DNA of 64,000 nt from assembly GCA_009780245.1 (NCBI GenBank), contig WRAJ01000004.1, positions 1-64,000 of the forward strand, written 5' to 3'. Origin of the DNA: Turicibacter sp. GTDB taxonomy: Bacteria > Bacillota_I > Bacilli_A > MOL361 > Turicibacteraceae. Both the position numbers and the translations under genes were made by a program. Below are positions 1,588-62,391 of the stretch, one piece after another (position 1 is the first letter of the stretch; each line of letters opens with the position of its first letter). The notes beneath the pieces are model-generated. The model had not been told where the DNA came from. It ran no database searches and saw only the letters and a program-made list of their open reading frames with translations.

Positions 1588-4365
1588 TCATCGCGCAATG
1601 TTTGACCAAGGCCTTGGAAGCCATGGGAACCAAGGAAAGCTCGGAAGCTCTGGAAGTGGTGGCAATGGTGGAAGTGGTGGCAATGGTGGAAGTGGTGGCA
1701 ATGGTGGTAATGATGGAAGCCCAGGCAAACTCGGAAACTCTGGAAGTGGCGGCAATGGTGGAAGTGGCGGAAGCCATGGTGGTCGCACCGGTGGTCGCTC
1801 ACACGCTACTTCTGTTTGCCACAAATAATCACGAGCAAAAATCGCAAACATTTGCGACCATGCTTCACCAGAATGCGCACCTGGCACACGATACAAAGCA
1901 TGCTCAATATCAACACTTGCTAAAGCATGAGAGAATGGCATATACTGAGCCGAATTAGCAAACATCCCATAACCAAACACAATCGTCGGTAACTCTCTAC
2001 TTGCAAGGTCGTCAAGGTCACGATCTCTCATGTCCCCGCCACCGCTAAATAAGCCGAAATACGCAAACTCATTCGTGTGCTCATAAAGGAGATGACTCGC
2101 AACAGCGCCACCCATTGAAAGACCAACAAACGAGCGTCCTTCTGGGCGATTTGAAGCGTTAAAGTTTTCCTCAACAAACGGCATAATGTTATACCGTATA
2201 TTTTCAACTGGATTCGGATGTCGACCGTTAAAGCCACCACCAGCAAAACCAAAGCCAAACGGGTTTTGATTCATCGTGACAAAGATCGTTGGCTCTAAAC
2301 CGTAATCAGCAATCAAGTTATCTAGAATATGCTGGGCACTTCCAATATTAAACCAATCAGTCTGATCACCAAAGATGCCGTGTGACGCATAAACAACCGG
2401 AAATTCTTCAGCGCGATTCACATCAAACCCATACGGTAAATAAATACCTAGATATTGTCTACCCCAATCGTTATCACTATTGTTAGCGTAATAAGGAATG
2501 AACTGAACCACACCTGTTTGCCCATCTGCTCTTGGCATTTCCAGATGACGATTATTCAATTCATGCTGCAACTCATTATGCCAAGGAACATGCACAACAC
2601 TGAGGACATCGTTGTTATTACCTGTTCTAAAGTCTCCTGGCGATTGCGGCGGCATGTTGTACGGGTCAGCAAGTCTTCTTGATGCATTTGGATTTTCTGC
2701 GTTATCCCATACTTGGAGCCAATACCCAGTCCCGCCGCCTGTCATCGGGAAGCTCGTTGTCCAATACCCATTACCAAGGTACACCATCGGCTCATGCAAG
2801 TTCGGCGATCCACCTACTGGGAACAAACCAGCACGATAATCACGAGGATGATACCTAGCCGTATTTTCCATGTTATAAATGTCACGCATCATCATATCCC
2901 CACGCACTTCTACCCGCGTTGCATCCGGATTATAATAAACAAATGTTGCGGTATAACCCGTTGGCGAAGCCGCATCTGCCATCACCGTCACGCCACGCTC
3001 AGCCGGCGGTGTGATGACCACTTCATCCGATTGCCATAAATAATCACGAGCAAAAATCGTAAAGAGTTGCGCCCAAGCATTCTGGTCGTGTCCTGCTGGT
3101 ACCTGATAATTGGTTGTTTCAATCCCCGCATCTGCCATCGCAGTTCTAAACGCTTGATACATATTAACAAAGAAGCCTGGTGCAAACATCCCATGTCCAA
3201 AGAAGATCGTTGGCGCATCAATGTTTGGAATATCTGCAAATCCTGGGAATGGCACCATGTTGCCGCCACCACTCATCATACCAAAGTACGAGAACTCATC
3301 GGTATAGTAAACTAGTAGGTGCGTAGCAAAAGCACCTCCCATTGAAAGACCCGCAACCGCTCGGTCTTCTGCCTGGCTTGATACGTTAAACTCTGCTTCA
3401 ACAAGCGGTAAGATATAATGCATCAAGTTTTCCACAGGACCGTAGAATGGTCCATTAAAGATCGAAACACCAGGTAGTGGCACCATAAAATCATGGTGAT
3501 TTTGATTCATCGTCACAACGACCGCTGGTTCCGTTAAGCCCTGAGCAATCAAGTTGTCCATAATATTCGGAACGCCACCAACCCATAACCAATCCGTTTG
3601 ATCCCCACCCATACCATGAGAAAGGAAAATAACGGGATACGGCTCTGCGCGATCGGCATCAAAGCCAGGTGGTAAGTAAACACCTAAATATTGCTGCCCG
3701 TCTCGAGAATCGTACGGAACAAATTGGACGCTTCCTCTTTGCGCTTCGTCTAGTAACGGCAGTTCAACGTCACGGTTATTCAGTGAATGTTGCAGGTCAG
3801 CATGCCAAGGAACATGAACTACACTATATGCCTCATTTTCGTGAATACGACGCCCCCCATAGCTTGGTCTTGGCGGTGCGTTATAAGGATCGTAAACGCG
3901 AACACCGTCGACAACAAACCAATAAGGCAGCCCACCGCCTGGTAATGGCACCGAGTAAACCCAATACCCATTGCCAATATCAGCCATCGGTGCATCTAAA
4001 TAAGCACCACCAGCAGGGAATAATCCTGGACGAAAATCTCTCGGGTGATAATGAGTTATATTCTCACGATTATAATAATCACGTAACATCATATGTCCTG
4101 TTAAAATGACTTCTTCAGCGTCTGGATTATGATAAACAAACGTCGCCGTGAAACCAGTTGGTGAATCAGCATCTGCAACTACGGTTACGCCACGCACTAG
4201 CTCGCTTGGAAGCGATTCTTGCTCATCTTCGGCAGAGTAAACGCCGGTTTCAATGATGATACCTTCATTGTTTTCATCCTGATCATCATTGTGATTAACA
4301 AAGATAGAACCGATTGGTGCCAAAGCAAGATTCAAGGACAATAGGGTTAATAACATTTTCCTCAT
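1588..4365 (-). CDS. secreted tandem-repeat esterase with a Pro-Leu repeat tail
   Basis: Predicted exported two-unit esterase of 925 residues. Residues 1-20 form a hydrophobic signal-like start. Two homologous units follow (about 58-449 and 457-851). Each has an N-terminal beta-rich module (starting RGVTVVADADSPTG or RGVTVMADAASPTG) and a C-terminal alpha/beta-hydrolase of the esterase D/feruloyl-esterase type. The GLSMGG nucleophile elbow puts the serines at 341 and 750. Likely catalytic His are 426 and 831, so both units look intact. Residues 858-925 are a proline-leucine tail of repeated PLP units with no LPXTG motif or membrane helix. It follows the sugar ABC permeases on the same strand with a 65-bp gap and no terminator, so it may belong to the sucrose operon. 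Related domains deacylate plant polysaccharides or mycolates; the substrate here is unknown. Confidence 0.8.
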   Translation of the reverse strand: MRKMLLTLLSLNLALAPIGSIFVNHNDDQDENNEGIIIETGVYSAEDEQESLPSELVRGVTVVADADSPTGFTATFVYHNPDAEEVILTGHMMLRDYYNRENITHYHPRDFRPGLFPAGGAYLDAPMADIGNGYWVYSVPLPGGGLPYWFVVDGVRVYDPYNAPPRPSYGGRRIHENEAYSVVHVPWHADLQHSLNNRDVELPLLDEAQRGSVQFVPYDSRDGQQYLGVYLPPGFDADRAEPYPVIFLSHGMGGDQTDWLWVGGVPNIMDNLIAQGLTEPAVVVTMNQNHHDFMVPLPGVSIFNGPFYGPVENLMHYILPLVEAEFNVSSQAEDRAVAGLSMGGAFATHLLVYYTDEFSYFGMMSGGGNMVPFPGFADIPNIDAPTIFFGHGMFAPGFFVNMYQAFRTAMADAGIETTNYQVPAGHDQNAWAQLFTIFARDYLWQSDEVVITPPAERGVTVMADAASPTGYTATFVYYNPDATRVEVRGDMMMRDIYNMENTARYHPRDYRAGLFPVGGSPNLHEPMVYLGNGYWTTSFPMTGGGTGYWLQVWDNAENPNASRRLADPYNMPPQSPGDFRTGNNNDVLSVVHVPWHNELQHELNNRHLEMPRADGQTGVVQFIPYYANNSDNDWGRQYLGIYLPYGFDVNRAEEFPVVYASHGIFGDQTDWFNIGSAQHILDNLIADYGLEPTIFVTMNQNPFGFGFAGGGFNGRHPNPVENIRYNIMPFVEENFNASNRPEGRSFVGLSMGGAVASHLLYEHTNEFAYFGLFSGGGDMRDRDLDDLASRELPTIVFGYGMFANSAQYMPFSHALASVDIEHALYRVPGAHSGEAWSQMFAIFARDYLWQTEVACERPPVRPPWLPPLPPLPPLPEFPSLPGLPSLPPLPPLPPLPPLPPLPPLPELPSFPWFPWLPRPWSNIAR
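1630..1794. repeat. minisatellite encoding the PLP tail of the esterase
   Basis: Short tandem units of the type GGTGGAAGTGGTGGCAAT (plus strand) recur, interrupted by variants. On the minus strand they encode the repeated Pro-Pro-Leu-Pro tail. Such arrays often vary in copy number between strains. Confidence 0.75.
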
Positions 4366-14782: not shown

Positions 14783-15607
14783 TTAATTCCAATCGATTCT
14801 TGATCGACGATTGTTCCATACGCCCCAGTTTGGGAAGTCTGAGATGTTTGTTGGTGGTACTTGCCAAACCCCTGAATATTCTGGGATGTAGCCTTGGCTT
14901 TCGATGAAGGCACTTTCTTCTTCATCTGTCATAGGCGTGATCGCTGCAAAACGTGTTCTCATGCTCTCAAGTTCTTCTTCACCACCTGCTGCAAGAATTG
15001 AAGCTGTGAAAAGACTGTTAATATTATCATTCGCACGCGTCATATTTGCCCTAGAAGGGTATCTTTCAGCGTATTCCAACGTTGATTCAGCAAAAGACCT
15101 GTGATACTCATGCGTATGTGCCGCTACTTCCCGCTGATTATCTGCTCGCAATCCTGCCAGATTCCCATCGCCGTCAAGATACGCAATTTCACCATAAGAA
15201 ACCACCACCTGCAAACTATAATCAAGAGCAGCCTCGTTACTCGTTTCAATAAAGTATTCAAGAATTGGTACGGCTGCTGAATGAGCCTCTGATAACGAAA
15301 TGCCTTCTTCAACGCGAATATTAAAGTAAATAACCGGTCCCGACATCCAGATCACTTCGACGTAGTCCACATGCACCTGATTGCCACCAAATTCTTCGGT
15401 CGCGCTTAACCATGCCTCATTAAGCTCAGGCATTTCTTCCATGCGATAACCAAATATCGGATTCCCCGTCGCCACTCTTGGTTGCCACCAAAGTTGATAC
15501 AAAACCACTCCTGCAAAAACAGCCGTTGCTACGAATAGCCCAATGCCATACAAAAAGGCAACTCGCGGCTTCGTTCTTCTCTTTTTTAAATCTCTTTTTT
15601 CCATCAT
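14783..15607 (-). CDS. single-pass membrane protein, function unknown
   Basis: I do not recognise this family. It has 274 residues: a basic N-terminus (residues 1-15), one membrane helix (about 18-38), then an acidic extracytoplasmic domain. It has no cysteine and no recognised catalytic motif. The type II topology suggests an envelope protein. The ATG at 15607 follows AGGTG by 6 nt; the GTG nine bases earlier is inside that site. It has its own terminator, so it appears to be monocistronic. Confidence 0.7.
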   Translation of the reverse strand: MMEKRDLKKRRTKPRVAFLYGIGLFVATAVFAGVVLYQLWWQPRVATGNPIFGYRMEEMPELNEAWLSATEEFGGNQVHVDYVEVIWMSGPVIYFNIRVEEGISLSEAHSAAVPILEYFIETSNEAALDYSLQVVVSYGEIAYLDGDGNLAGLRADNQREVAAHTHEYHRSFAESTLEYAERYPSRANMTRANDNINSLFTASILAAGGEEELESMRTRFAAITPMTDEEESAFIESQGYIPEYSGVWQVPPTNISDFPNWGVWNNRRSRIDWN

Positions 15608-15719
15608 TGTATTCACCTAATAATCTGTCATAATTTCAAATACTTAACTTTATTATTATACCACAAATCGAAAGAGAAACACAAATTTTTTATGTGGTAG
15701 CATCATGCTTTCAGTCATT

Positions 15720-17967: not shown

Positions 17968-19188
17968 TCACTCATAAACCCAATAAATCGTAATCTTATT
18001 CAAATTCCCCTTCTCACGAATCATATACTGCACACTTTCCAACCCGTACCACTCCGCCAAAGTACGCGCGGCTTGTGGTGCGAGATCGTCCAAGATAATC
18101 GGTCGCATCTGATCAAACAACGCTGGCGTTGCAAATTGAAAAGCGATCCAAGCTTCACCGGTCATCACACTCGCGTTCATCGCCTCTAATACCCGCTCTG
18201 CATCGTGATCCTCATAAAACATCCCGTTCACCACAAAAAAGTTGTGTCGCAACGAAGTCGCTGCCGGGACGCTCATCCCAGGCGTAATCGTATGAGTTCG
18301 GAAGATTAATTCATCGTTGATCAAGAAATAATCATAGACGATGCCAGGGTGATTCGCCATGCCCTCATTTTGAAAATTAGGACTTCCCCAAGTCACATCT
18401 AAATGATAGTACTCCCCAGCAAGACGCACTAAATTCCAAGCGTGGGCAATGGGTTCTACAGATGTACCCGGCACATAAGCAACGCCGGCGACGTAGATGG
18501 TCGGCACCCCTAGCTGGTTAAGCAGGAGTTGAGCCGCTCTTGCAAACCCGGCGCAGACGGATTCCTGGTTCACAAAGACACTGTAAATATTCTGATGGTC
18601 GCTAGCGTCTAAGTTATAGCTCGTGGTGAAAATGATGTGCTCGTACACGGCTAGCACGACGTCATAATCGCTCATCCCAGGATTAATGGTCGACACAAAC
18701 GCTTCTACTGCTTCATCAATTTCGATTTGCATGGTTGCGCGAGCCTCTAATGTGTGTGCGTATTCAGGCTGAAAGGTGATGTAGGCGGTGCCGTCCGACC
18801 AACGTGTAATGGTTGACATACCAGCGCCCGTGATCCAGAAAAACTCGGGATAGTCAAACAAAATCAGCTGGTAAATTTCGTGCACGCGCTCCGCATCGTC
18901 CGTCTCTAAACGGATTTCCAAATCACCGCGGTAAACCCCGTCTCTCAGTTCGCGATAAATCACTTGCTCGGCTTCGTCTAACTGGTTGTAAAAAAACCGC
19001 TCTACGATGTGCGCCTCAAATGTTCGTTCAATGATTTCTGGGTCAGTGGCCACTTCTGGCTCAGTAGCTGGCACGGTCGGTTCGATCAGGTGCTCTCTTC
19101 TTTCCACTTCGTTGTCATGATCATGCCACCAAAACCAAGCCGTTGCCCCGACTCCGATAATTAAAAGGAAAACTAATATTTTTTTCAT
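17968..19188 (-). CDS. membrane-anchored transglutaminase-like protein
   Basis: Extracytoplasmic protein of 406 residues with an N-terminal membrane anchor (about 3-21). A transglutaminase-like cysteine-protease fold follows. The triad is visible: Cys212 in ESVCAGFARA, His249 in AHAWNLV and Asp264 in YYHLDVTWG. A linker of Glu, Pro and Thr (about 33-52) joins anchor and domain. Such proteins are usually peptidases or cross-linkers at the cell surface; the substrate is unknown. It is transcribed alone. Confidence 0.82.
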   Translation of the reverse strand: MKKILVFLLIIGVGATAWFWWHDHDNEVERREHLIEPTVPATEPEVATDPEIIERTFEAHIVERFFYNQLDEAEQVIYRELRDGVYRGDLEIRLETDDAERVHEIYQLILFDYPEFFWITGAGMSTITRWSDGTAYITFQPEYAHTLEARATMQIEIDEAVEAFVSTINPGMSDYDVVLAVYEHIIFTTSYNLDASDHQNIYSVFVNQESVCAGFARAAQLLLNQLGVPTIYVAGVAYVPGTSVEPIAHAWNLVRLAGEYYHLDVTWGSPNFQNEGMANHPGIVYDYFLINDELIFRTHTITPGMSVPAATSLRHNFFVVNGMFYEDHDAERVLEAMNASVMTGEAWIAFQFATPALFDQMRPIILDDLAPQAARTLAEWYGLESVQYMIREKGNLNKITIYWVYE

Positions 19189-47622: not shown

Positions 47623-48009
47623 CTATTCTAAAAACACAACCCCCTCTCCAAACCGATACTGCAACTCGCGTTCTCTCACAAAATCATTATACACAATTTG
47701 AATAAACATTTCCAAACTATTTTGCAAAAAATCAATCTCTACCGTGAGCAGCGCCCCTCTACTTAATGAAAACCGCTCCGAAATCCCAGTCCCTATCATC
47801 TGATCGCTCACCTCAAAATCCGTCAAAAATGCCCCCAATACCTGCAACGCCTCCTGCTCCAACACATTCATCCGCAAATAATCCCGCGTCCTCGCGTAAG
47901 ATGCCGCCTTTATCTCAAGACGCGCCGATAACATCAAAAGCAACGCCGCCGTCATTAACAGCAGCCCCAACATCAGCGGCAAAACAAAGCCCTCTTCTTT
48001 CCTAGCCAT
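47623..48009 (-). CDS. comGG: competence pseudopilus protein ComGG-like
   Basis: Minor pseudopilin-like protein, 128 residues with one hydrophobic helix near the N-terminus (about 8-30) after KEEGF. Assigned by position as last structural gene of the comG operon and by size; sequence conservation in ComGG is low. The ATG at 48009 follows GAGG by 9 nt and overlaps the comGF stop; an in-frame ATG at 48051 is possible. Confidence 0.7.
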   Translation of the reverse strand: MARKEEGFVLPLMLGLLLMTAALLLMLSARLEIKAASYARTRDYLRMNVLEQEALQVLGAFLTDFEVSDQMIGTGISERFSLSRGALLTVEIDFLQNSLEMFIQIVYNDFVRERELQYRFGEGVVFLE

Positions 48010-48514
48010 CTTCATCATCCTCGTCATTTTCTTCTGTAACCCTAACGACATCGACGTCCAACCTTAACACCGTCACGTAAAGCTCAAACACCTCCCCTTC
48101 TACCGACATGAGTCTTATCCGTGCACTCTGATCGGCAAAAACATGCACGTCCAAGCCACTCACATGATAGCTCACAATTTCACCGCCAACCCCGTTAACT
48201 TGACGCAGCAGCCGGTTGTTAGTCGCCGTGAAGCTCACCACGTCGCCAGTTTCTGAAAAGTAAAGTAGCAGACCGCCCCTTCCGGCAGAGATCGAGGTGG
48301 CTAATCGCCCTTCATTTTGCAATCTAAGTGCGATCGTATTCGCCTCGTGTTTCGTTAACGCGTTGTAATCTTGTCGGTACACCGCAATCAAATGCATCAG
48401 GGTTAACGCAACCACACTTAAGATGCCGACGATGGCCAGTGATAGTAAATGTTCCACGAGCAAAAAGCCTTTTTCACAAGCAAATCGTTCGCGTTTTGCC
48501 GTCTTGCCACACAT
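48002..48514 (-). CDS. comGF: competence pseudopilus protein ComGF-like
   Basis: Minor pseudopilin, 170 residues. The type IV prepilin start CEKGFLLVEHLLSLAIVGIL provides a cleavage site after Gly and the membrane helix. A very acidic end (EENDEDDEDG) closes the protein. The ATG at 48514 follows AGGTGG and overlaps comGE by about 40 bp. Confidence 0.78.
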   Translation of the reverse strand: MCGKTAKRERFACEKGFLLVEHLLSLAIVGILSVVALTLMHLIAVYRQDYNALTKHEANTIALRLQNEGRLATSISAGRGGLLLYFSETGDVVSFTATNNRLLRQVNGVGGEIVSYHVSGLDVHVFADQSARIRLMSVEGEVFELYVTVLRLDVDVVRVTEENDEDDEDG

Positions 48515-48773
48515 AACGACCGCACCACCTTTCACCTTGTCTGAAGGCCTCAAAGTCATCTGCACCACTGAGGATCGGCAAGCCATTGAGCTCCTGAATA
48601 TGAAATTCTGCTAAGCGGTGATAAATCGCTTGTTCTTTGTCAAGCCGCGCACCGGCCTCCAGCAAAACCGGTAACGCAGTGACCAGCGACAAGGCCATGA
48701 TGCCTAGTAAAACCAATCCCAGTAAACTTTCGATCAGCAAATACCCGTTCTCGTTTTTCAAATCATCTAACAT
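48474..48773 (-). CDS. comGE: competence pseudopilus protein ComGE-like
   Basis: Minor pseudopilin, 99 residues. Prepilin-like start NENGYLLIESLLGLVLLGIM, with Tyr in place of the usual Phe after the cleavage Gly. Overlaps comGD and comGF at its two ends, as is usual in this operon. Confidence 0.75.
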   Translation of the reverse strand: MLDDLKNENGYLLIESLLGLVLLGIMALSLVTALPVLLEAGARLDKEQAIYHRLAEFHIQELNGLPILSGADDFEAFRQGERWCGRYVWQDGKTRTICL

Positions 48774-49200
48774 CAAAACCACCTACTCCTACAGAAAATA
48801 CAATGTCTCGCGTATGCGCGCGGCTTTCGATTCGCAACGTGCGCCCTTGTCCTAAATTCCCTCTCGCATTAAAACTGATTTCTGAAATGGCGCTACCATG
48901 TGGCATGCTCACACGGCTGGGAAAGGTCCTTTCTGCTATCACATTGCCGCCCATGAGCAGCACGTAACGACCCTCGTTGTGATGAATGTGCAAAGCCATC
49001 CGCGCCCCTGGTTGCAACGGCATCATGTTAACATCACGCACGCGATGGAGATCCGCTTGCAGCGTCGTGATCGCCTGATTCAATTGCATGTAATCGTACA
49101 GATCCACAATGAATGGATAGCTAATCAACGACAACATCGCGACAATCACCAGCGAAATCAACGCCTCAATCAATGTAAAACCACGCTCGCTCCTCATCAT
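48763..49200 (-). CDS. comGD: competence pseudopilus protein ComGD
   Basis: Pseudopilin, 145 residues, with the classical ERGFTLIEALISLVIVAML prepilin sequence (peptidase cleavage before Phe). The start overlaps the comGC stop (TGATG), so translation is coupled. Confidence 0.85.
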   Translation of the reverse strand: MMRSERGFTLIEALISLVIVAMLSLISYPFIVDLYDYMQLNQAITTLQADLHRVRDVNMMPLQPGARMALHIHHNEGRYVLLMGGNVIAERTFPSRVSMPHGSAISEISFNARGNLGQGRTLRIESRAHTRDIVFSVGVGGFDVR

Positions 49201-49442
49201 CAATTGCAGACGCGATCAAACGATTCCTGTGGAATACTCGCATTGTCACCGGTCAAATCATTCGCAATTTGAAGCGCCGCGTCCGAGGACGTTAATGCCT
49301 CACACCCTTGCTCGTTTGCCGTTCCCAAAATCGTCAACGCATTGGGAATGACCAGTAGGACTAAGATGGAAATCACAGCTAGGACAATGAGCATTTCTAC
49401 TAACGTGAAACCCTTTTCATTTTTCAATAATTTTCTTATCAT
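49200..49442 (-). CDS. comGC: major competence pseudopilin ComGC
   Basis: Main subunit of the DNA-uptake pilus. The prepilin motif NEKGFTLVEMLIVLAVISIL is perfect. At 80 residues it is on the short side. Two Cys (about 47 and 79) could form the stabilising disulfide known for Bacillus pseudopilins. Requires a prepilin peptidase (ComC), not in the window. Confidence 0.93.
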   Translation of the reverse strand: MIRKLLKNEKGFTLVEMLIVLAVISILVLLVIPNALTILGTANEQGCEALTSSDAALQIANDLTGDNASIPQESFDRVCN

Positions 49443-49457
49443 CGTAAACCTCTCCTT

Positions 49458-50489
49458 TTAAATAATGGTGATTAATTCAAACACAGGCTGCAAAATACTC
49501 AAGTATAACATCACAATGAGCCCGCCTGTTAAAGCTAAAAATGTCCCTTGAAACAGCTTAATAAAACTAGTCATTACCGCATTTAAACTGGCTAATTCGG
49601 CATCGACAAATCGCTTCAATTCCACATCCAATTTTCCAATTCGCAAAGCATGTGTCGTAATCAAACGAAAATACGGCGTGAAACAATTACACCCTCTAAT
49701 CAATTGCTCGATGGACTCGCCACCTTCAATACGCTGTTCAATTTCTTTGACAACCACTTGTACCAGCGGCACGGTTTCAAATTGGCGAATGGTCGCCATG
49801 CTATCCTTAAAAGATAACCCACAGCTAATAAACATTTCCATCTGTGTCGCAAAATAGTAGGAAAAGATTCTCGCCGCTAATTGACGAACACCGTAAACAC
49901 TAAAAAGTAGCTTGCGACATTTCAATTGAAACTTCTCGTTATCCCATTTTAAAACAAGCAACACAAACAAACTGATAGCTAGAAAGATAAACAAAACCGT
50001 CCCGATGATGGCAATGACACCGGTGATCATGGTTTGATCGCCTTCAATCCCAAACGTCGTGTAAAAATCAGAAAGACGCGGAATGAAGAGGATAAACACC
50101 GCGGCAATGACGACCATGACCATGCTAAACAAAAATAACGGGTAGCGTAATTTCTTTGCTAATTCGGTTCGATTTGCCAAATAGTTTGAGCTGTAATTTC
50201 GAGCACCTTGCAACCCTTTTACTAAGGCATGGTTTTTCTCGCCAGCACGTACGATGTAGACGATGCGTGATTCGAATTTCAGCTTTTCTAGTGCGTCTGA
50301 AAAGGGTTCGCCTTTTGCGCAACTAGCCTGCATGTGCATCATCGTTTTAGGTGTCATGAAGGCTGCCATGACTTCCAACGCTGCGGTAATCGCAAAGCCA
50401 TTCTCGACTAACTCAGTAAATCTTTGCAAAAATTTTACTTGCGTTTTGAGCGCGAGCTTTTTTGTTTTTTCGATTTTTGTGATTTCCAT
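49458..50489 (-). CDS. comGB: competence pilus membrane platform ComGB
   Basis: Type II secretion F-domain membrane protein that anchors pilus assembly, 343 residues. Two F domains (about 18-140 and 210-335) and membrane segments near 115-140, 160-190 and 310-335 are visible. The ATG follows GAGGAG by 8 nt and overlaps comGA by 55 bp. Confidence 0.92.
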   Translation of the reverse strand: MEITKIEKTKKLALKTQVKFLQRFTELVENGFAITAALEVMAAFMTPKTMMHMQASCAKGEPFSDALEKLKFESRIVYIVRAGEKNHALVKGLQGARNYSSNYLANRTELAKKLRYPLFLFSMVMVVIAAVFILFIPRLSDFYTTFGIEGDQTMITGVIAIIGTVLFIFLAISLFVLLVLKWDNEKFQLKCRKLLFSVYGVRQLAARIFSYYFATQMEMFISCGLSFKDSMATIRQFETVPLVQVVVKEIEQRIEGGESIEQLIRGCNCFTPYFRLITTHALRIGKLDVELKRFVDAELASLNAVMTSFIKLFQGTFLALTGGLIVMLYLSILQPVFELITII

Positions 50490-51439
50490 TTCAAACGCTC
50501 CTCATCTAAGGTTGTGTACGGGAGTGTGATCACGCTCCCTTCTATGACCTGCTCCATTAAATGCCCTAGTGGTTTTGCTGCACAAATCTCCATGAGTGCT
50601 TTTCGGCTTTTCCCCACAGGCACTAAGCGCTGGTTGACTAAGGCAATCACCGATTGATCTAGATCATGCACAGAAACACCGAGATCTAGCAAACGGTGAA
50701 TCGTGCCCAAAATGTCCTTTGAATGGACGGTTGAAATGACAAGATGACCCGTTAGTGCTGCTCGAATAGCTTGCTTTGCTGTTATCGCATCCCGAATTTC
50801 ACCGATCACGATGACATCCGGGTCGTGCCTCAAAATTTCTTTGATGCCGATGTCGTAATTCATCCCTGCGTTTTCATTGACTTGCATTTGGACGATATCC
50901 GGTTGCTGATATTCGATCGGATCTTCAATGGTAATCACACTTTTGCCTAGTTTGTTTTTCAGATGATCAATTAGTGCATAAGCCGTCGTCGTCTTGCCGC
51001 TTGATGTCGGCCCACTGATTAAGATTAAGCCTGCTTCGTTTTGCAAAATTTCTTTTAGTAAGGTTGTGTTGTTTAGAAAGAACGGTATTTCTTCTAAGTC
51101 CTTACCCATTTTTATGTTGATGATCCGTAGCACCATGCTGTGAAATTTTACGGTTGGTAAAAGGGAGACCCGACAAGAAAACACCTCGCTTTCTTCTTCA
51201 ATCACTAAACTTCCTGACTGTGGTTGCATCGGACTCGCTAAGTCTAGCGATGCATTGAACCTCACATAAGATAACAATTGTTCATATTTACTACGTTCTA
51301 AACGCAAATAAGGCAACATGTCGCTACCCGCTCTATACCCAACTAACACAACTCCTTCCTCTTCTAGTGTAAAATGAATATCACTAGCATTAATATCAAT
51401 CGCATCGGAAACGATTTTGATTAATTCTTTTTTTACCAT
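50435..51439 (-). CDS. comGA: competence pilus assembly ATPase ComGA
   Basis: Traffic ATPase of the GspE/PilB family that powers pseudopilus assembly, 334 residues. Walker A GPTSSGKTTT (143-152), Asp box, Walker B-like VIVIGEIRD (about 208-216) and His box (TGHLVISTVHS) are intact. The C-terminal end is highly basic (KWKSQKSKKQKSSRSKRK). The ATG follows AAAGGAGG. First gene of the operon. Confidence 0.95.
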   Translation of the reverse strand: MVKKELIKIVSDAIDINASDIHFTLEEEGVVLVGYRAGSDMLPYLRLERSKYEQLLSYVRFNASLDLASPMQPQSGSLVIEEESEVFSCRVSLLPTVKFHSMVLRIINIKMGKDLEEIPFFLNNTTLLKEILQNEAGLILISGPTSSGKTTTAYALIDHLKNKLGKSVITIEDPIEYQQPDIVQMQVNENAGMNYDIGIKEILRHDPDVIVIGEIRDAITAKQAIRAALTGHLVISTVHSKDILGTIHRLLDLGVSVHDLDQSVIALVNQRLVPVGKSRKALMEICAAKPLGHLMEQVIEGSVITLPYTTLDEERLKWKSQKSKKQKSSRSKRK

Positions 51440-55903: not shown

Positions 55904-56237
55904 TCTGCCACTTCCTTTGATTCTCGGCTCACTGACCGAATTTGATCGTACAACAGTATACCACAGTTTGCACCGGTTTAGCACTATGAAAACGCCAGCC
56001 TTTTTTACAAAAATAATCCTCACTCACAAATAAAAGCATTGAAAACCCATCCAAAATTGGGTTCCAATGCTTTATTTTCTTTTTTAATGTCTATTGTTCA
56101 TCACTTTCGATTGCAATAATTTCTTCTAATCTAAGCAGGTTAGGTAGATAATAGGATAATTGTTGATAAAATTACAATGATTAATGGTAAAAGTTTTGAG
56201 CGTTGTAATCCCGTTTGAACAATCGTTTTCATTTATT
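55904..56237. other. intergenic region with promoter, terminator and gene remnant
   Basis: Holds the promoter of the TauE gene (extended -10 TGGTATACT at 55955-55963, minus), then a strong terminator (56031-56078). At about 56090-56232 are two short minus-strand frames. One has 30 codons and begins MKTIVQTGLQRSKLLPLIIV, like the start of an FtsX-type permease. The other is in the next frame and ends RLEEIIAIESDEQ. They may be debris of a frameshifted gene; neither has a ribosome site. Confidence 0.45.
56031..56078. terminator. terminator after the FtsX-permease cassette
   Basis: AAAGCATTG and CAATGCTTT enclose a second stem AACCCA/TGGGTT; T-rich sequence lies on both outer sides. Confidence 0.8.
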
Positions 56238-57803
56238 CTAACCGATATTGCTTTTAAGTAGAATATTTTTCGGATTCATTTTTAGCAGATAAAGCATTGG
56301 CATTGTTGTTGCAATCATGATCGTACCGACAACCATCAAATAAAAGGTTAATACAACCTCAAACGTAAGGTGGACACGGTAAGCTTCTATCATCTCTTCT
56401 TCCGTCATCTCAATGCGAAATCCCATTGCTTCAAGTGAGTCACTCCCGTAAAATCCTTCATGCTCTTGCATCATCTGATTTGAAAGTTCTCTTGCCATCA
56501 TTTCTGAGGAGATTTGATCAGCCAGAAAATAACCAACACCAAGAGCCAAGGTTACAGCAACCATTGAAATCAACAAAATTTCTAATGTATTTTGAACATA
56601 TAATTTCACTTTCCGCTCGCCTAGTGCAAGATAAACACCAATTTCTTGTTTTCGCTCTTGAAGAAGCATTAAAATCAGGAGTGTCAGCGTTACACTCGTT
56701 GCAATTATTGACCCGATGAGTAACCCATTTGCCATATCACGCACGGTTTCCATGGCAGTAGCCATTGGGGCATAAGCATTAGAAAGATCGCTCACCATCC
56801 AAAAATCTGGCAATAAATTCAATGCTGCACGATGAAAGCCCAATAAATATAAGGGATCATGCAACAAAAAAACAATGTTTTCATATTGAATCACCTCTTC
56901 CAAGTCGTCAATCATTAAGAAGTCCTCAATGATCTCATCACCTTCTGAAAAGGTCTCAAGATATAGATCGATAGTTGATTCAATCACCCGATTAGGTACG
57001 TAAAATCGATTTGAAATTTCAAAATGTTCTCTAATCATCCACGGTTCAAGTTCTCGATCGTAGGTGATTTCATGTATAAACACACCGATTATTTCCAATT
57101 CAAACGACGTCGAGTTTAAAAGATTTTCAGAAGAAAATTCCTCTTGTGCAACAGATACACCGCCTTCAACGTGATAAATGCGATAATCTAATTCAATGAT
57201 ATCGCCTATTATGAAATCATTTGACTCCATGAAATCATGGGATACTAACACAACCGAACTTCCATTTTCAACCTCTTCAAGTGTAAAAGTTCGACCGTCG
57301 ATTAACTGGATTAATCCAGCTTCAACATCCATGACATAGGGATGATGAATCCCTTTTAGCATGAAGCGCTCAGAATTTAGTCCTTGAGCTCTTAGGCTGT
57401 CATGATCCCTAATGCTTTCCATTGGAACATTAATTGCAACAAACATTTCTGAATCAAAAACACGAACAAGATCATCGCCAAAAAAACTGAATCCCCATGT
57501 TGAGTAATCAAAGCTATTGACATAAGGGAGTGATCCGATTTCTCTAATTAAATGACCACTTACACTTTCGAATCGTAGTTCTAATCCTTCATTGAAAGCT
57601 TGAGAAATAGCTTCTTGATCTTGCCTAATCGTTGCCATAGCAGGCAATTGACGGCGCAAATTTTCATCGGCATTTATAATCGCCCTTCTAATAGAAATCG
57701 CTCCTGCCATCAGAGTCGCTAGTAAAAAGACCAAACTAAAAGCCAGCATTGTTTTTACCCATTGTCTTTTTATGCTAATTAAAATACGATTAAATAATTT
57801 CAA
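56238..57803 (-). CDS. FtsX-like ABC permease, no cognate ATPase nearby
   Basis: Membrane protein of 521 residues with MacB/FtsX topology: one N-terminal helix (about 19-41), a large extracytoplasmic domain (about 42-350), then three helices. The cytoplasmic loop after helix 2 has ERKQEIGVYLALGERK, the family coupling sequence that contacts the ATPase. A TTG at 57803, 8 nt from GGAG, gives M-K-L-F-N-R; longer frames start without a site. Such permeases export peptides or act mechanically, but need an ATPase partner, not found here. It follows the anchored protein gene in a cassette. Confidence 0.83.
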   Translation of the reverse strand: MKLFNRILISIKRQWVKTMLAFSLVFLLATLMAGAISIRRAIINADENLRRQLPAMATIRQDQEAISQAFNEGLELRFESVSGHLIREIGSLPYVNSFDYSTWGFSFFGDDLVRVFDSEMFVAINVPMESIRDHDSLRAQGLNSERFMLKGIHHPYVMDVEAGLIQLIDGRTFTLEEVENGSSVVLVSHDFMESNDFIIGDIIELDYRIYHVEGGVSVAQEEFSSENLLNSTSFELEIIGVFIHEITYDRELEPWMIREHFEISNRFYVPNRVIESTIDLYLETFSEGDEIIEDFLMIDDLEEVIQYENIVFLLHDPLYLLGFHRAALNLLPDFWMVSDLSNAYAPMATAMETVRDMANGLLIGSIIATSVTLTLLILMLLQERKQEIGVYLALGERKVKLYVQNTLEILLISMVAVTLALGVGYFLADQISSEMMARELSNQMMQEHEGFYGSDSLEAMGFRIEMTEEEMIEAYRVHLTFEVVLTFYLMVVGTIMIATTMPMLYLLKMNPKNILLKSNIG

Positions 57804-57850: not shown

Positions 57851-58918
57851 CTATTCTACTACTTCTATAGTAAACCTCAGCCCTGTTTCAATGGGTACAA
57901 AGTTTCCCTGAGAGTTAGGACTTGTTGGGTTCACAATTAATAAACTACCAATCTCATAAAACCCTGGTTCTTCTGGTGCGATAAAAACAAAACGACTGTA
58001 ATTCCCGATATTTTCATTGTCCTCAGCATAAAAATGCAAATAAGGTTGCCCGTTTATCGGTACTTGTTGCCAATCTACCATTAAAAGAATTAGGAAACTA
58101 TGAACGTCTTCATCAACAAATCCGTAAGGGTTGGTTTGAAACGAAAACGCAACTTCTTCTCCTGGGGATACCTGAAAGCGATGTGGTGGAATCACTTCGC
58201 TAGTAAAACCATCAGTACTTAGATCCGTAACACCGATAATCAAGGCATGCATGTTCATCTCTGGACCTGATTCTAGCGGGTGCACAGGCTGAATAGGTAA
58301 CGAAAGGGGTTCCTCTCCTCCGTAGCTGATTTCAAAATTCAAAACAAATCCGTAACTCATATCGTAGAAAGGATCAAATCGCACGTATTCTTCGACACCC
58401 CTGAATAGAGCGAAGGTCAATTTGTTTAACATCTCGTCAGCTTCAAGCTCCGGTGAAAGATAAATAGGCAAGTGCATCTCATGATCACTTTCAATCATAA
58501 ACAAAAACTCTGTCACATATTCTTCGGTAGCAGCAATCCGAAAAGGCACTGCTTCATAATTATAGAAAAGCTTCATTAAAAAGGGGTACGGTTCCGCTCT
58601 GCCATTCATTACCCGAAATGTAATAAGATCTTGAGGGCTTTCAAGGTTTAAACGACCATCCAAAATAACGCCATCTTGAATACCGAATACAATCTCTTCG
58701 ATGTGATGATTTAGCTGTTCCTCATTCATGGGCTGTTTAAGGATATCAGAGTTTTCGATCACAGCTTCACTTTCTTCAAGAGCCATCACACGAAGATCAT
58801 TAGCTACTACATCCTCTATTACTACTACTTCGTCATCTTGAGATAAAAAAACAATTAAAATGGGAATAGTAACAGCAATCACAAAAATTGCTGTCACCAT
58901 CAATGTTTTTTTCTTCAT
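57851..58918 (-). CDS. membrane-anchored extracytoplasmic protein, unknown
   Basis: Unrecognised 355-residue protein with an N-terminal anchor (about 5-26) and a large acidic, aromatic-rich outer domain predicted as beta. There is no lipobox or known motif. It starts only 3 nt after the stop of the secreted polypeptide gene, so translation is likely coupled. It is followed by the FtsX-type permease. Possible roles are immunity, maturation or adaptor protein for the secreted polypeptide (inference). Confidence 0.7.
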   Translation of the reverse strand: MKKKTLMVTAIFVIAVTIPILIVFLSQDDEVVVIEDVVANDLRVMALEESEAVIENSDILKQPMNEEQLNHHIEEIVFGIQDGVILDGRLNLESPQDLITFRVMNGRAEPYPFLMKLFYNYEAVPFRIAATEEYVTEFLFMIESDHEMHLPIYLSPELEADEMLNKLTFALFRGVEEYVRFDPFYDMSYGFVLNFEISYGGEEPLSLPIQPVHPLESGPEMNMHALIIGVTDLSTDGFTSEVIPPHRFQVSPGEEVAFSFQTNPYGFVDEDVHSFLILLMVDWQQVPINGQPYLHFYAEDNENIGNYSRFVFIAPEEPGFYEIGSLLIVNPTSPNSQGNFVPIETGLRFTIEVVE

Positions 58919-58921
58919 GGC

Positions 58922-59359
58922 TTAGTTCCACGTACGCTCGTATGATAAATCTCCAGCCCATGAACCGCTAGCGCTGAGGCGTCGTTGTCCCTCAAGTCTC
59001 ACTCGCCCTCTTCTTGCTGTTCCAGTATGAGTTTCAACATGAGCAGCTTCCCACAAGTTTAGCGCTCCTGATGCAAGCGTTCTTGAACGCCAAGTACTGT
59101 TGTTATTGCCAAGAACGCCACCGTTTGCATTTCTACTTTGGACTAATACCCGTACCCGAACACCGTTAACAACTGTGGTATTTGTCTCTACAAATCCATT
59201 ACCAAATATGTTCCCGATAATTGGCCTGCTTGCTACGCCATTCAAGTTAATAGATGTGTTACTACGAAGCGGCAATGCGTGTGCGATTGTTGTCCCAACA
59301 CCTAAACCTAGCAATATTACACTCAAACAAATGACAATATTTTTAATTTTTCTTCTCAT
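58922..59359 (-). CDS. secreted cationic polypeptide of unknown function
   Basis: 145 residues; signal peptide 1-28 ending AHA, leaving a mature chain of about 117 residues. The mature part has 14 Arg, no Lys, no Cys, four Trp and six acidic residues, a net charge near +8 in a genome region whose exported proteins are acidic. It is rich in Asn and Gly (GGVLGNNNSTW). A strong ribosome site (TTGGAGG) and a perfect consensus promoter indicate high expression. The set secreted peptide, anchored protein, FtsX-type permease recalls lactococcin 972-like loci, but no sequence identity is claimed. Confidence 0.72.
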   Translation of the reverse strand: MRRKIKNIVICLSVILLGLGVGTTIAHALPLRSNTSINLNGVASRPIIGNIFGNGFVETNTTVVNGVRVRVLVQSRNANGGVLGNNNSTWRSRTLASGALNLWEAAHVETHTGTARRGRVRLEGQRRLSASGSWAGDLSYERTWN

Positions 59360-59450
59360 AGTAAACCTCCAAATTTTTATTTATTCATTTTCCTGTCATT
59401 GATTCGTACGCAACCAATGACCAAGAAGTGAAATTTATGTCGACAATTGA

Positions 59451-59479
59451 ATTATAGCCTTTGTTGAGATCTTTGTCAA
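59451..59479 (-). promoter_or_regulatory. consensus promoter of the secreted-polypeptide cassette
   Basis: Perfect -35 TTGACA (59474-59479), 17-bp spacer, perfect -10 TATAAT (59451-59456). It is the only promoter in the window I see with both boxes perfect. A 13-bp A/T homopolymer lies just upstream of the -35. Confidence 0.88.
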
Positions 59480-59534
59480 CTTTTTAAGCCAAAAAAAAAA
59501 AAACTTTTATATTTTACACTAATAGAAGCAATTA

Positions 59535-59554
59535 AAGCCAGCTTGCGCTGGCTT
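59535..59554 (-). terminator. probable terminator after the LCP unit
   Basis: AAGCCAGC and GCTGGCTT with a 4-nt loop; followed by TAATTGCTTC, a weak T-tract. Confidence 0.5.
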
Positions 59555-59708
59555 CACTTCCTTATAAAACCCCTAAACTGCAACTGATCACTATTCAGTT
59601 GGCTTCCATTAACATTCATTTTAACTTTAACTTTATTTGTGTCAATGCACTTGCGAAAGCCACGATACTTATAATGATCTTATTAACTATTTTCATATCA
59701 AAATGCTT

Positions 59709-60521
59709 TTAATAAGTAGTTGGCGGTACACATTCGCCCCAGATGTTTTCTACGCAGGTTTGAACGATGTCGATTTGGAAAATGCGTAAACCTTCATCCT
59801 CCACTTCCATTAGCACTATTCGGGCTGCTGTTTGAAATTGATCAATTTCTAAGAGATGCGTTGGTGCAAACGTCCATTCAAGATAAACAACGATCGTCGT
59901 TTCAAATTGTGGCTCATCAAGACAGTTGCCCCAAAAATCATAAAACTCACATTCGGTGTTTTCCATTAATCTTGGCTCGAGGTATACTTCAGTGACCGTC
60001 ACCGAGTCAACCATCGGCATGAGATCAGATCCGTACGTTTCAAGGTGTCGTCCCAGATGTAAATAAAACGTACTTGTTGCATCTAATGCAAAATCAGCTG
60101 CGATTTCATCTGGAAAGAATTGCACGCCTCCGACATCCGAACGTGATTCTTTATTGGATAGTGTGAAGAAGTCTGCGATAAAGTTCCTTGCCATTTCAGA
60201 CGCGTAGTCTTGCAACGCTGCTTCTGTTCCTAATTCTTCAAATTGCTGGTGTGCTCGCATTAATTCCTCAAACAACTCAATCTGTAAGTCCGTTGCATTG
60301 ATGCTTAATTCATAAGGACTTACATCTTCGTCGTAATCTTCTACTTCGTCAGGTTGTTGTTCTTCGACAACTGGCTCGTCATTTTGATCGACTTGGTCAG
60401 AATCAGACCTGATGTCTCTCGTTTGAAAAATCAAAACACCCATCGTAGCTAAGAAAAGCAATCCGAAAAACACACTGAAAAGTAATAAAACTTTACCTTT
60501 TTTATTATTTAATTCGCTCAT
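59709..60521 (-). CDS. membrane-anchored acidic protein, unknown
   Basis: Unrecognised 270-residue protein: N-terminal helix (about 10-32), an Asp/Glu/Pro linker (35-68) and an extracytoplasmic domain (about 70-270). Four Cys in C-x-F-x5-C and C-x6-C spacing (near 193-200 and 255-263) could form two disulfides. It begins 53 bp after the LCP gene stop with no terminator, so the two are probably co-transcribed and it may assist wall-polymer attachment. Confidence 0.68.
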   Translation of the reverse strand: MSELNNKKGKVLLLFSVFFGLLFLATMGVLIFQTRDIRSDSDQVDQNDEPVVEEQQPDEVEDYDEDVSPYELSINATDLQIELFEELMRAHQQFEELGTEAALQDYASEMARNFIADFFTLSNKESRSDVGGVQFFPDEIAADFALDATSTFYLHLGRHLETYGSDLMPMVDSVTVTEVYLEPRLMENTECEFYDFWGNCLDEPQFETTIVVYLEWTFAPTHLLEIDQFQTAARIVLMEVEDEGLRIFQIDIVQTCVENIWGECVPPTTY

Positions 60522-60574: not shown

Positions 60575-62344
60575 TTACCAAGCCTCGGTTGGTTCATTCC
60601 CATTACCATACACTTGATCAGCTGGAAGCGTTGGTGGCACCGGCGGATCTGTAGGGGGCTGTTCATCAGCTGGTGGCCGATCAACCGGTTGATCAGTTGG
60701 TGGGGATGAATCTGGCATCCCCGGATCCACTGGTGGTATCCACGGATCATGCGGTAAAGCTGGCTCCGTCGGTGTGATAATCCCATTGCCAAAATAGTCG
60801 TACGGCAACCAATTAATTCTTCTTCTATCAAAACCATTAAAATCAAAAGCAAGGATGAAAGGAGGTTCTTCTAACCCTAAGTTGATCATCATAATTCTTC
60901 TAGCCTCTTCAATTTGAAGCTGAGATAGCACGACAACACTTGACTCGTCCACGTACATATCATGACCAATGATCGCCATGCTCATAACGTGCACTTCATT
61001 CATCAAGTCATTCATGCCAGTGCTTGGGAGAAACTCAACCAAATATTGCGCCAACGCCGTGATTTCATGCGTCGTCATGTTCGTTCTCATGTTTAAACTA
61101 AGCACTTCAAGAAGATTAACCGCATCACTAACGCTTGATAAACTTCCGACCATCTCTCTGATCATGGCTTCTAATACCAATTGGGTATTCTCAGAACGCT
61201 GAAAATCGTTAGCCAATGTGTCTCGGTGTCTAATGAGTGCCAAAGCTTGTTCGCCATCAAGCACCTGCAACCCTTGTTCAACAAAAATGCGATACGCCGG
61301 TCCGGTCCGACGGCGGCTATCTTGCTCATCAAATGTGAACGGCACGTCCACTTCAACACCACCAAGCTCATTAACCACATCAACCACACCGGTCATATTA
61401 ACCAACACGTAATAAGGGATTTCCATATCAAATAAATTTTCCACGGTTCTAACGGCACAATCAACGTCACCGTGTGCCGTGGCATGCGCCAATCGGTCAT
61501 AAATGAAACTACAAGCGTTCATCACCCAGCCATCTCTTGGAACGGAAGTCAAGGTAAACGATAATTCATCAATGTTAAACGTCGCTAACATGATGGTATC
61601 AATACGGCCATAATCCAATTCCCCGGCCTGGTGAGAATCGAGTCCCAAGATCAAAAGGGAAAACGGCTCCCCTGGCTCTAATACTTCGCGCTCTTCTCTT
61701 TCAATAGTGACATCAAACCGCCCCAGAACAACAGTGTCAAATTCGATGTTCTCAAAACCAACTTCGTCTTCGAAGAAGCGAACGAAATTGCTCGTAATGA
61801 TAATCGTGTCGACTTCACCTGCGTACAAGGCTTCTAACAACGCTGTTGGTGAAGCGAAATCCGTTGTAATCGGGTTGGGAATGTAGCTTTGGCCCTCTAA
61901 AAAGATGATTCTCGCTTCGGAGATTTCAGTGGCAACGTTCGTTAAAACACCTGTGCGTCCGTACCCGTTTAGCGTTTCTGCATCAAAACCTGCCATGGCA
62001 ACCAAGCTATACCCACGCTCAAGCGGACGTTCGGTGACAATATCCAAAACATTGCTGACACGATGCGCCATCACCGCACCATAAGTTGTCCCGAAGAAAA
62101 AACCGACGGTTAACAACACGACCAAACCTTTCCCTATTTTTCGTTTGTTAATTGAAAAATAAGACCCACTAAAGATTAAAAATAAATATAATAAAACGAT
62201 TGCCATTGAAACTAAAAGTCGTAAAAAACCATCAATCCCAGTGAATCTATCTAAACTCATGACCAACCACACAATCGGAATGCTCGGTAAAAAGAATAAA
62301 ATCTTAAGCCAATTCTTTTCTACTGACTTCTTTAAAAAACTCAT
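60575..62344 (-). CDS. LytR-CpsA-Psr (LCP) family glycopolymer ligase
   Basis: Cell-surface enzyme that links wall teichoic acid or capsule polymers to peptidoglycan. It has 589 residues. Three membrane helices (about 15-32, 41-61, 72-94) are followed by an accessory domain (about 100-215) and the LCP domain (about 227-400) with the conserved Asp, Arg268 (SVPRD) and RHRDTLANDFQRSENTQ (372-388). The last 70 residues are Pro-rich. Three helices plus an accessory domain match capsule CpsA-like members. The ATG at 62344 follows AGAAGG by 8 nt. Confidence 0.88.
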   Translation of the reverse strand: MSFLKKSVEKNWLKILFFLPSIPIVWLVMSLDRFTGIDGFLRLLVSMAIVLLYLFLIFSGSYFSINKRKIGKGLVVLLTVGFFFGTTYGAVMAHRVSNVLDIVTERPLERGYSLVAMAGFDAETLNGYGRTGVLTNVATEISEARIIFLEGQSYIPNPITTDFASPTALLEALYAGEVDTIIITSNFVRFFEDEVGFENIEFDTVVLGRFDVTIEREEREVLEPGEPFSLLILGLDSHQAGELDYGRIDTIMLATFNIDELSFTLTSVPRDGWVMNACSFIYDRLAHATAHGDVDCAVRTVENLFDMEIPYYVLVNMTGVVDVVNELGGVEVDVPFTFDEQDSRRRTGPAYRIFVEQGLQVLDGEQALALIRHRDTLANDFQRSENTQLVLEAMIREMVGSLSSVSDAVNLLEVLSLNMRTNMTTHEITALAQYLVEFLPSTGMNDLMNEVHVMSMAIIGHDMYVDESSVVVLSQLQIEEARRIMMINLGLEEPPFILAFDFNGFDRRRINWLPYDYFGNGIITPTEPALPHDPWIPPVDPGMPDSSPPTDQPVDRPPADEQPPTDPPVPPTLPADQVYGNGNEPTEAW

Positions 62345-62391
62345 CCGATACACCTTCTCAATTACACTAATTTTTTTTCTATTGCTCAATC

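Follow-up and report, generated by a model that had tools for sequence, protein, structure and literature searches.

A predicted lysine-free secreted protein of Turicibacter belongs to an amplified, new-looking family of secreted-protein and FtsX-type permease modules

We analysed a 64,000-nucleotide stretch of DNA from Turicibacter sp. (the window; positions 1 to 64,000 of contig WRAJ01000004.1, assembly GCA_009780245.1), in which an initial annotation made from the letters alone had singled out the range 58922-59479. This range comprises an open reading frame together with its promoter. The reading frame is the first of a same-strand unit of three genes, which encode a small secreted protein (the window SSP), a 355-aa exported protein and an FtsX-type permease, in that order. 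The features of the unit are as follows:

59533..59556, minus strand: terminator-like hairpin, stem of 10 bp, separating the promoter from the upstream gene at 59709-60521 (pattern match only)
59451..59479, minus strand: promoter TTGACA-17-TATAAT, perfect sigma-70 consensus (sequence pattern)
59366..59370, minus strand: ribosome-binding site GGAGG, 6 nt 5' of the ATG (read from the sequence)
58922..59359, minus strand: window SSP, 145 aa, ATG start (open reading frame, model and homologues)
59276..59359, minus strand: predicted Sec signal peptide, residues 1-28, AHA cleavage (read from the sequence, without a dedicated predictor)
57851..58918, minus strand: gene 2, 355-aa exported or lipoprotein-like protein (family A2/A6)
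56238..57803, minus strand: gene 3, FtsX/MacB-type permease (PF02687, E ~5e-10), likely TTG start at 57803
56042..56065, minus strand: terminator-like hairpin closing the unit (pattern match only)

The intergenic gaps are 3 nt between the first two genes and ~47 nt between the second gene and the likely TTG at 57803. The permease matched the FtsX C-terminal domain (PF02687) at E = 5e-10, above the curated cut-off, and no ATPase gene adjoins the unit. By pattern match, the hairpin at 59533..59556 may insulate the unit from the upstream gene. The promoter is the sole exact match to TTGACA-17-TATAAT in the window, for which 0.55 matches with at most one mismatch to the consensus are expected by chance over its whole length. 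A perfect promoter and a strong ribosome site (GGAGG, 6 nt ahead of the ATG) had both been described in the initial annotation, and both were found as described; from these two elements we infer that the window SSP may be highly expressed. Elsewhere in the window, a competence-pilus-like cluster (ATPase, membrane protein and prepilin-like proteins) was read by eye at 47623-51439 on the minus strand.

The signal of the window SSP was recognised by reading, with a basic start (MRRKIK), a hydrophobic core and AHA cleavage after residue 28. Counting after this site gave a mature chain of ~117 aa with 14 Arg, no Lys and no Cys, as previously reported. The results showed that its Arg-richness is unusual even against the exported proteins of its own genome (P ~9e-4), and that zero Lys has P = 0.41 on the exported-protein background and 3e-4 on the cytosolic background, all with the cut placed after residue 26. 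The earlier statement that no family could be recognised also held, since the protein had no Pfam or NCBIfam match at E <= 1 and no match at E <= 0.1 among the anti-phage defence profiles of PADLOC, which matched none of the three operon genes. The SH3_3 and SH3_4 profiles did not match it either, a plasmid search returned no matches, and the sole match in the PDB by sequence profile was a depolymerase at E = 0.11. A match on a viral contig (L207) fell in a phage tail-fibre-like region and was set aside as a chance match around LGNNNSTW.

Structure prediction, which the initial annotation had named as a way to place the protein, yielded a fold and only generic relatives. The AlphaFold model is an 8-strand beta sandwich with a mean pLDDT of 67, and Foldseek comparison with the PDB and with viral models returned low-scoring matches of a generic kind only, Ig-like or beta-sandwich, none of the PDB matches listed lying above TM 0.45. 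DNA binding, one of the functions suggested earlier, found no support in these results; binding to the wall or cell surface is plausible.

We then compared the unit with related genomes, namely the window's own genome (G000, assembly ~76% complete), one other genome of the genus (G001) and a genome of another genus of the same family (G002). The window SSP family (A1) has a homologue in G001 (L005:13629-14126, 35-37% identity) and a paralogue in the own genome (L004:2486-2944, contig C7), and beyond these three known members none turned up when 395 genomes from the class were searched by profile. Both homologues adjoin a 355-400-aa family protein and an FtsX permease, and their wider surroundings differ. 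The same neighbours recur at both homologous loci, indicating that the SSP, the 355-aa gene and the permease travel together. The permease homologues of the unit are 46-48% identical, and the family of the 355-aa protein (A2/A6) accompanies the permease clade of the window unit. The model of the 355-aa protein contains Ig-like beta domains at low confidence (mean pLDDT 66); fold matches of the A2 family to RbmA, transglutaminase beta domains and WxL-interacting proteins reached TM 0.2-0.35, too weak to use. Directly after the window SSP paralogue, and before another FtsX gene, lies a second small Lys-free secreted protein of 127 aa (L004:2938-3321, plus strand).

The FtsX family proved to be amplified in these genomes, with 27 matches in G000, 27 in G001 and 31 in G002, some of them fragments, and 0-6 in five other genomes of the family. 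An FtsX relative (29% identity) was found at L116 (WRHI01000002.1, Peptococcaceae bacterium isolate Nt197P3bin107), from another termite-gut assembly, of the P3 compartment of Neocapritermes taracua. The recurring plan is an SSP of ~95-200 aa, sometimes a lipoprotein, and then the FtsX gene, mostly without an ATPase gene. SSPs lay at most two genes upstream in 31 of 64 FtsX genes and in 16 of 303 other genes of the same stretches, giving an odds ratio of 17; the p-value of this association is descriptive, because SSPs were defined (signal-like start, no more than one Lys and three or more Arg beyond residue 45) on the basis of the first examples. For about half of the FtsX genes, no SSP was recognised within two upstream genes. 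By sequence, the 31 SSPs form several groups that resemble one another weakly or not at all; three SSPs match SH3_3 and two match SH3_4. They are cationic as a class, with 235 Arg, 9 Lys and 108 Asp plus Glu in the 2,685 residues after position 45, so the cationic charge is specific to a class of ~30 SSPs upstream of FtsX-type permeases and is not a property of the window SSP alone. Promoters scoring 11-12 out of 12 were also more frequent in this class (8 of 27 SSP-class genes, compared with 17 of 194 others; p = 0.005). By sequence, the window SSP is a member of an amplified, new-looking family of secreted-protein and permease modules.

In a maximum-likelihood phylogeny covering 65 permeases, the type of SSP tracked the clade of its permease for several families, including some that span genera. 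The type a clade (the window, L004, L005 and the distant match L056) was recovered with support of 100/98, as were the type b clade and the type e clade, which joins genera (L084 from G001 and L099 from G002). The permeases next to the SH3-like SSPs L062 (G000) and L104 (G002) also group together (100/99), and type f forms a clade at 96/93; elsewhere, partners of the SH3-like and d types are spread over the tree. Since most SSP families comprise one to three known loci, co-inheritance was tested on few groups, and on these groups the long shared inheritance of pairs in different genera argues for a specific working relation. Association and co-inheritance of SSP and permease are well supported by the sequences.

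One dedicated and strongly conserved ATPase occurs per genome in G000-G002. The copy at C7:15063 of G000 is 88% identical in G001 and 72% identical in G002, where the next-best ATPases are 39-42% identical to it. Reciprocal-best permeases of G000 and G001 are only 34-55% identical. A second G000 ATPase is 50% identical to the first and lies beside a permease of another clade. The coupling loop of the window permease, RKQEIGVYLALG, carries the same motif as in ATPase-linked copies, and the coupling motif RxxEIGxYLALG was found by a strict pattern in 42 of 65 permeases, including most of those without an ATPase neighbour. The gene after the C7:15063 ATPase encodes a PASTA-domain protein, with one match per genome in G000-G002. 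An operon in the order FtsX, ATPase and PASTA protein lies at L063:3327-7239 (own genome, contig C7) and at L074:5544-9361 (G001), and a similar order was seen in G015 (L113). This operon is possibly the core that drives the amplified permeases. The PASTA neighbour of the ATPase and the SH3 matches in SSPs point to the cell wall, and the simplest reading is that one ATPase would serve most of the permeases in trans at this site.

The near-absence of Lys is not particular to the window SSP. In G000, exported domains contain 0.75% Lys and 4.5% Arg, compared with 6.48% Lys and 4.3% Arg in cytosolic proteins (p = 6e-16); exported proteins were classified by a simple hydropathy rule, which may err in single cases, but any such errors are very small beside the contrast. 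Thirteen of 34 sampled G000 exported proteins over 200 aa are lysine-free. Exported Lys is as low in G001 and partly so in G002, and is normal (5.6%) in four genomes of another genus of the same family. The change follows the membrane within single proteins. In the FtsX proteins of G000, Lys:Arg is 16:245 outside and 89:53 inside (p = 5e-35), corresponding to Lys/(Lys+Arg) values of 0.06 and 0.63, respectively. The SSPs retain Lys in their signal n-regions (Lys:Arg 81:21), and their mature parts have 9:235. LCP domains contain 0-1 Lys in G000 and G001 and 5-14 in most other genomes compared. G023, G098 and G139 were considered as further low-Lys cases and rejected, as a single LCP protein was low in Lys and the wider exported proteins were normal. 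These findings indicate that Lys loss is limited to the extracytoplasmic parts of proteins, which we regard as well supported at the sequence level.

Within the window, most exported proteins are low in Lys, among them those at 1588-4365, 60575-62389 and 14783-15616, all on the minus strand. The 925-aa esterase at 1588-4365 and a 277-aa exported protein have no Lys in their mature parts, and a LytR-CpsA-Psr protein has none in its LCP domain. The transglutaminase-like protein at 17968-19188 (minus strand) has two Lys in its own exported part.

The initial annotation had taken the lysine-free profile, set among acidic exported proteins, as a pointer to function, with a bacteriocin among the options. 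The acidic background was borne out, with Asp plus Glu at 16% across the other exported proteins of the genome. The lack of Lys, on the other hand, is uninformative about the window SSP, because it spans the whole exported proteome of the lineage; the genome-wide loss is the more interesting observation.

High pH is the likely cause of the replacement of exported Lys by Arg. The G001 contig WRKJ01000108.1 is labelled 'MAG: Defluviitaleaceae bacterium isolate Th196P1bin8', a family placed in Clostridia by NCBI. Th196 denotes Termes hospes, whose P1 hindgut compartment has been called highly alkaline (PMC7024585); P1 has also been described as 'sometimes highly alkaline' (PMC4660790). By extension from this sister genome, the window's genome would also originate from termite P1. 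The Mrp antiporter subunit MnhB was matched only in G000 (C39:4942-5220), G001 (C67) and G002 (C191) among 11 genomes searched. Lys has a pKa of ~10.5, and Arg keeps its charge at high pH. Exported Lys may have been lost because it loses charge near the pH of the habitat, where Arg stays charged. Alkaline adaptation of M-protease has likewise involved fewer Lys and more Arg (PMC8153356).

Causes other than pH, such as avoided cross-linking by a secreted transglutaminase or Lys economy in proteins lost to the medium, are very improbable. The transglutaminase-like core (PF01841, E = 7e-9) of the secreted protein at 17968-19188 (minus strand) would speak for the former, but PF01841 proteins are often not cross-linkers. 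Arg, which is costlier to synthesise than Lys, was kept or raised, and membrane-bound extracellular domains, which are not lost, are equally depleted. The lysA gene is present in G000, G001 and G002, so low Lys is not explained by a missing final step in Lys synthesis, and the Mrp matches and the P1 origin fit alkaliphily.

We give about an even chance to the reading that the window SSP is an extracellular client, handled by its cognate permease with the shared ATPase at the boundary of membrane and wall, by analogy with known ABC systems. The three-gene operon, the permease amplification, the pairing and the side-specific Lys loss on which it builds are well supported by sequence comparison; we infer that the ATPase acts in trans, in which direction the mechanical step runs, that the SSP binds the wall and that pH caused the Lys loss. 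In this mechanism, a Sec-secreted, beta-rich SSP whose cationic charge comes from Arg only would act outside the cell as the partner of the co-encoded FtsX-type permease. ATP hydrolysis by the shared cytosolic ATPase would move the extracellular domain of the permease, as in the type VII ABC systems FtsEX, LolCDE and MacB. The permease domain and the 355-aa surface helper would then capture, release or activate their own SSP at the membrane-wall interface, after which its Arg charge could hold it to the polyanionic wall or surface. The absence of Lys would reflect an alkaliphilic lineage that swapped exported Lys for Arg, whose charge persists under the conditions of pH in the termite P1 hindgut.

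The main rival of the client reading is a bacteriocin with self-immunity, in which the SSP would be a wall-targeting toxin like lactococcin 972, the FtsX permease and shared ATPase would protect the producer, and the many modules would form a toxin-immunity arsenal. The window SSP is small, cationic, Sec-secreted and predicted to be beta-rich, and has a strong promoter; SSPs are many and diverse in sequence, each with a cognate membrane protein; and homologues are low in identity (35% for the SSP and 46-48% for the permease). The layout also resembles that of lactococcin-972 loci, in which a small Sec-secreted beta sandwich is followed by an integral membrane protein and an ATPase (PMC11796350). 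However, a match to this family, which the initial annotation had suggested searching for, was not obtained by Pfam, NCBIfam or profile-profile comparison. PF09683 was unmatched in G000, G001 and G002 and in the 31 SSPs at E <= 0.1, and hhalign of the A1 profile against the lactococcin-972 profile was empty. The pattern GG-W...G...S-Y-H...H, invariant in seven aligned class members, is missing from the window SSP, the FtsX/MacB-type permease and the DUF1430 protein of G005 did not align, and the ATPase lies outside the operon. We did not file the window SSP in the lactococcin 972 family, because profile, motif, permease type and ATPase all disagree with it. The SH3-like and PASTA parts further suggest housekeeping at the wall, and we consider the bacteriocin explanation less probable than the client reading, though a live rival to it.

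Still less probable is a structural protein or adhesin of the wall or surface whose link to the permease is regulatory only, for instance through a wall-stress sensor that induces the operon, with no handling: the Ig-like beta-sandwich prediction, the SH3 domains in several partner SSPs, a cationic charge suited to polyanionic walls and a large secreted protein beside the G001 homologue (L005:14598-17507, minus strand), whose adhesive domain is pectate-lyase-like (PF20585), agree with it, but type-specific co-inheritance with permease clades suggests specific recognition and not co-location alone, and the window SSP showed neither sortase nor S-layer nor repeat features.

The client reading, extended to the whole family, describes a platform that has no description in the literature searched: at least about two dozen FtsX-type permeases per genome that share one ATPase, each dedicated to its own SSP, together with a near-lysine-free exoproteome arising from extreme pH. 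We advance this tentatively, as somewhat short of an even chance. It raises the testable question of whether one ABC-type ATPase can serve many extracellular clients via interchangeable FtsX permeases, for which the SSP-permease pairs and clades are ready-made cognate and non-cognate sets. Exoproteomes with so many lysine-free members offer a natural experiment on how proteins adapt to extreme pH, and Arg-only enzymes could be drawn from them; the approximately tenfold shift in Lys/Arg ratio across the membrane within one protein is a possible marker of topology and habitat.

Compared with known systems, the modules share with lactococcin 972 loci (PF09683; lcn972 / scbABC) a small protein in first place that is predicted to be Sec-secreted and beta-rich, followed by an ABC-permease-type membrane protein, and those loci are often strongly regulated and strain-variable. 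Lactococcin 972 itself inhibits septum formation by binding lipid II. The modules differ from these loci in a permease that is FtsX/MacB and not DUF1430, in an operon without an ATPase, in a 355-aa exported protein between the two genes, in the many modules per genome and in the lack of sequence or profile similarity. Bacterial SH3 (SH3_3 / SH3_4) wall-binding proteins offer a second comparison, since several sister SSPs have SH3 domains or weak similarity to SSPs that bear them, whereas the window SSP itself has no such match.

The modules resemble type VII ABC systems (FtsEX with its extracellular partners, LolCDE and MacB) in having an FtsX-domain permease whose extracellular domain is large and whose cytosolic coupling loop is conserved, in their extracellular or lipoprotein partners and in the LolD/MacB-like type of the putative shared ATPase. 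In contrast to these systems, most of the permeases have no ATPase neighbour and seem to share one, and the partner is small, non-catalytic, cationic and different between modules. FtsEX partners normally carry hydrolase domains, which the SSPs do not, and this counts against the client reading, as do the FtsX genes that have no recognised SSP nearby, the small number of groups behind the co-inheritance and the scatter of SH3-like and d-type partners. Finally, alkaline exoenzymes such as M-protease (PMC8153356) share fewer Lys and more Arg with this lineage. In M-protease, a single enzyme is affected and acidic residues fall, whereas here nearly the whole exported proteome is Lys-poor and acidic residues are high (16%), with the SSPs, which are low in acidic residues, forming the exception within it.
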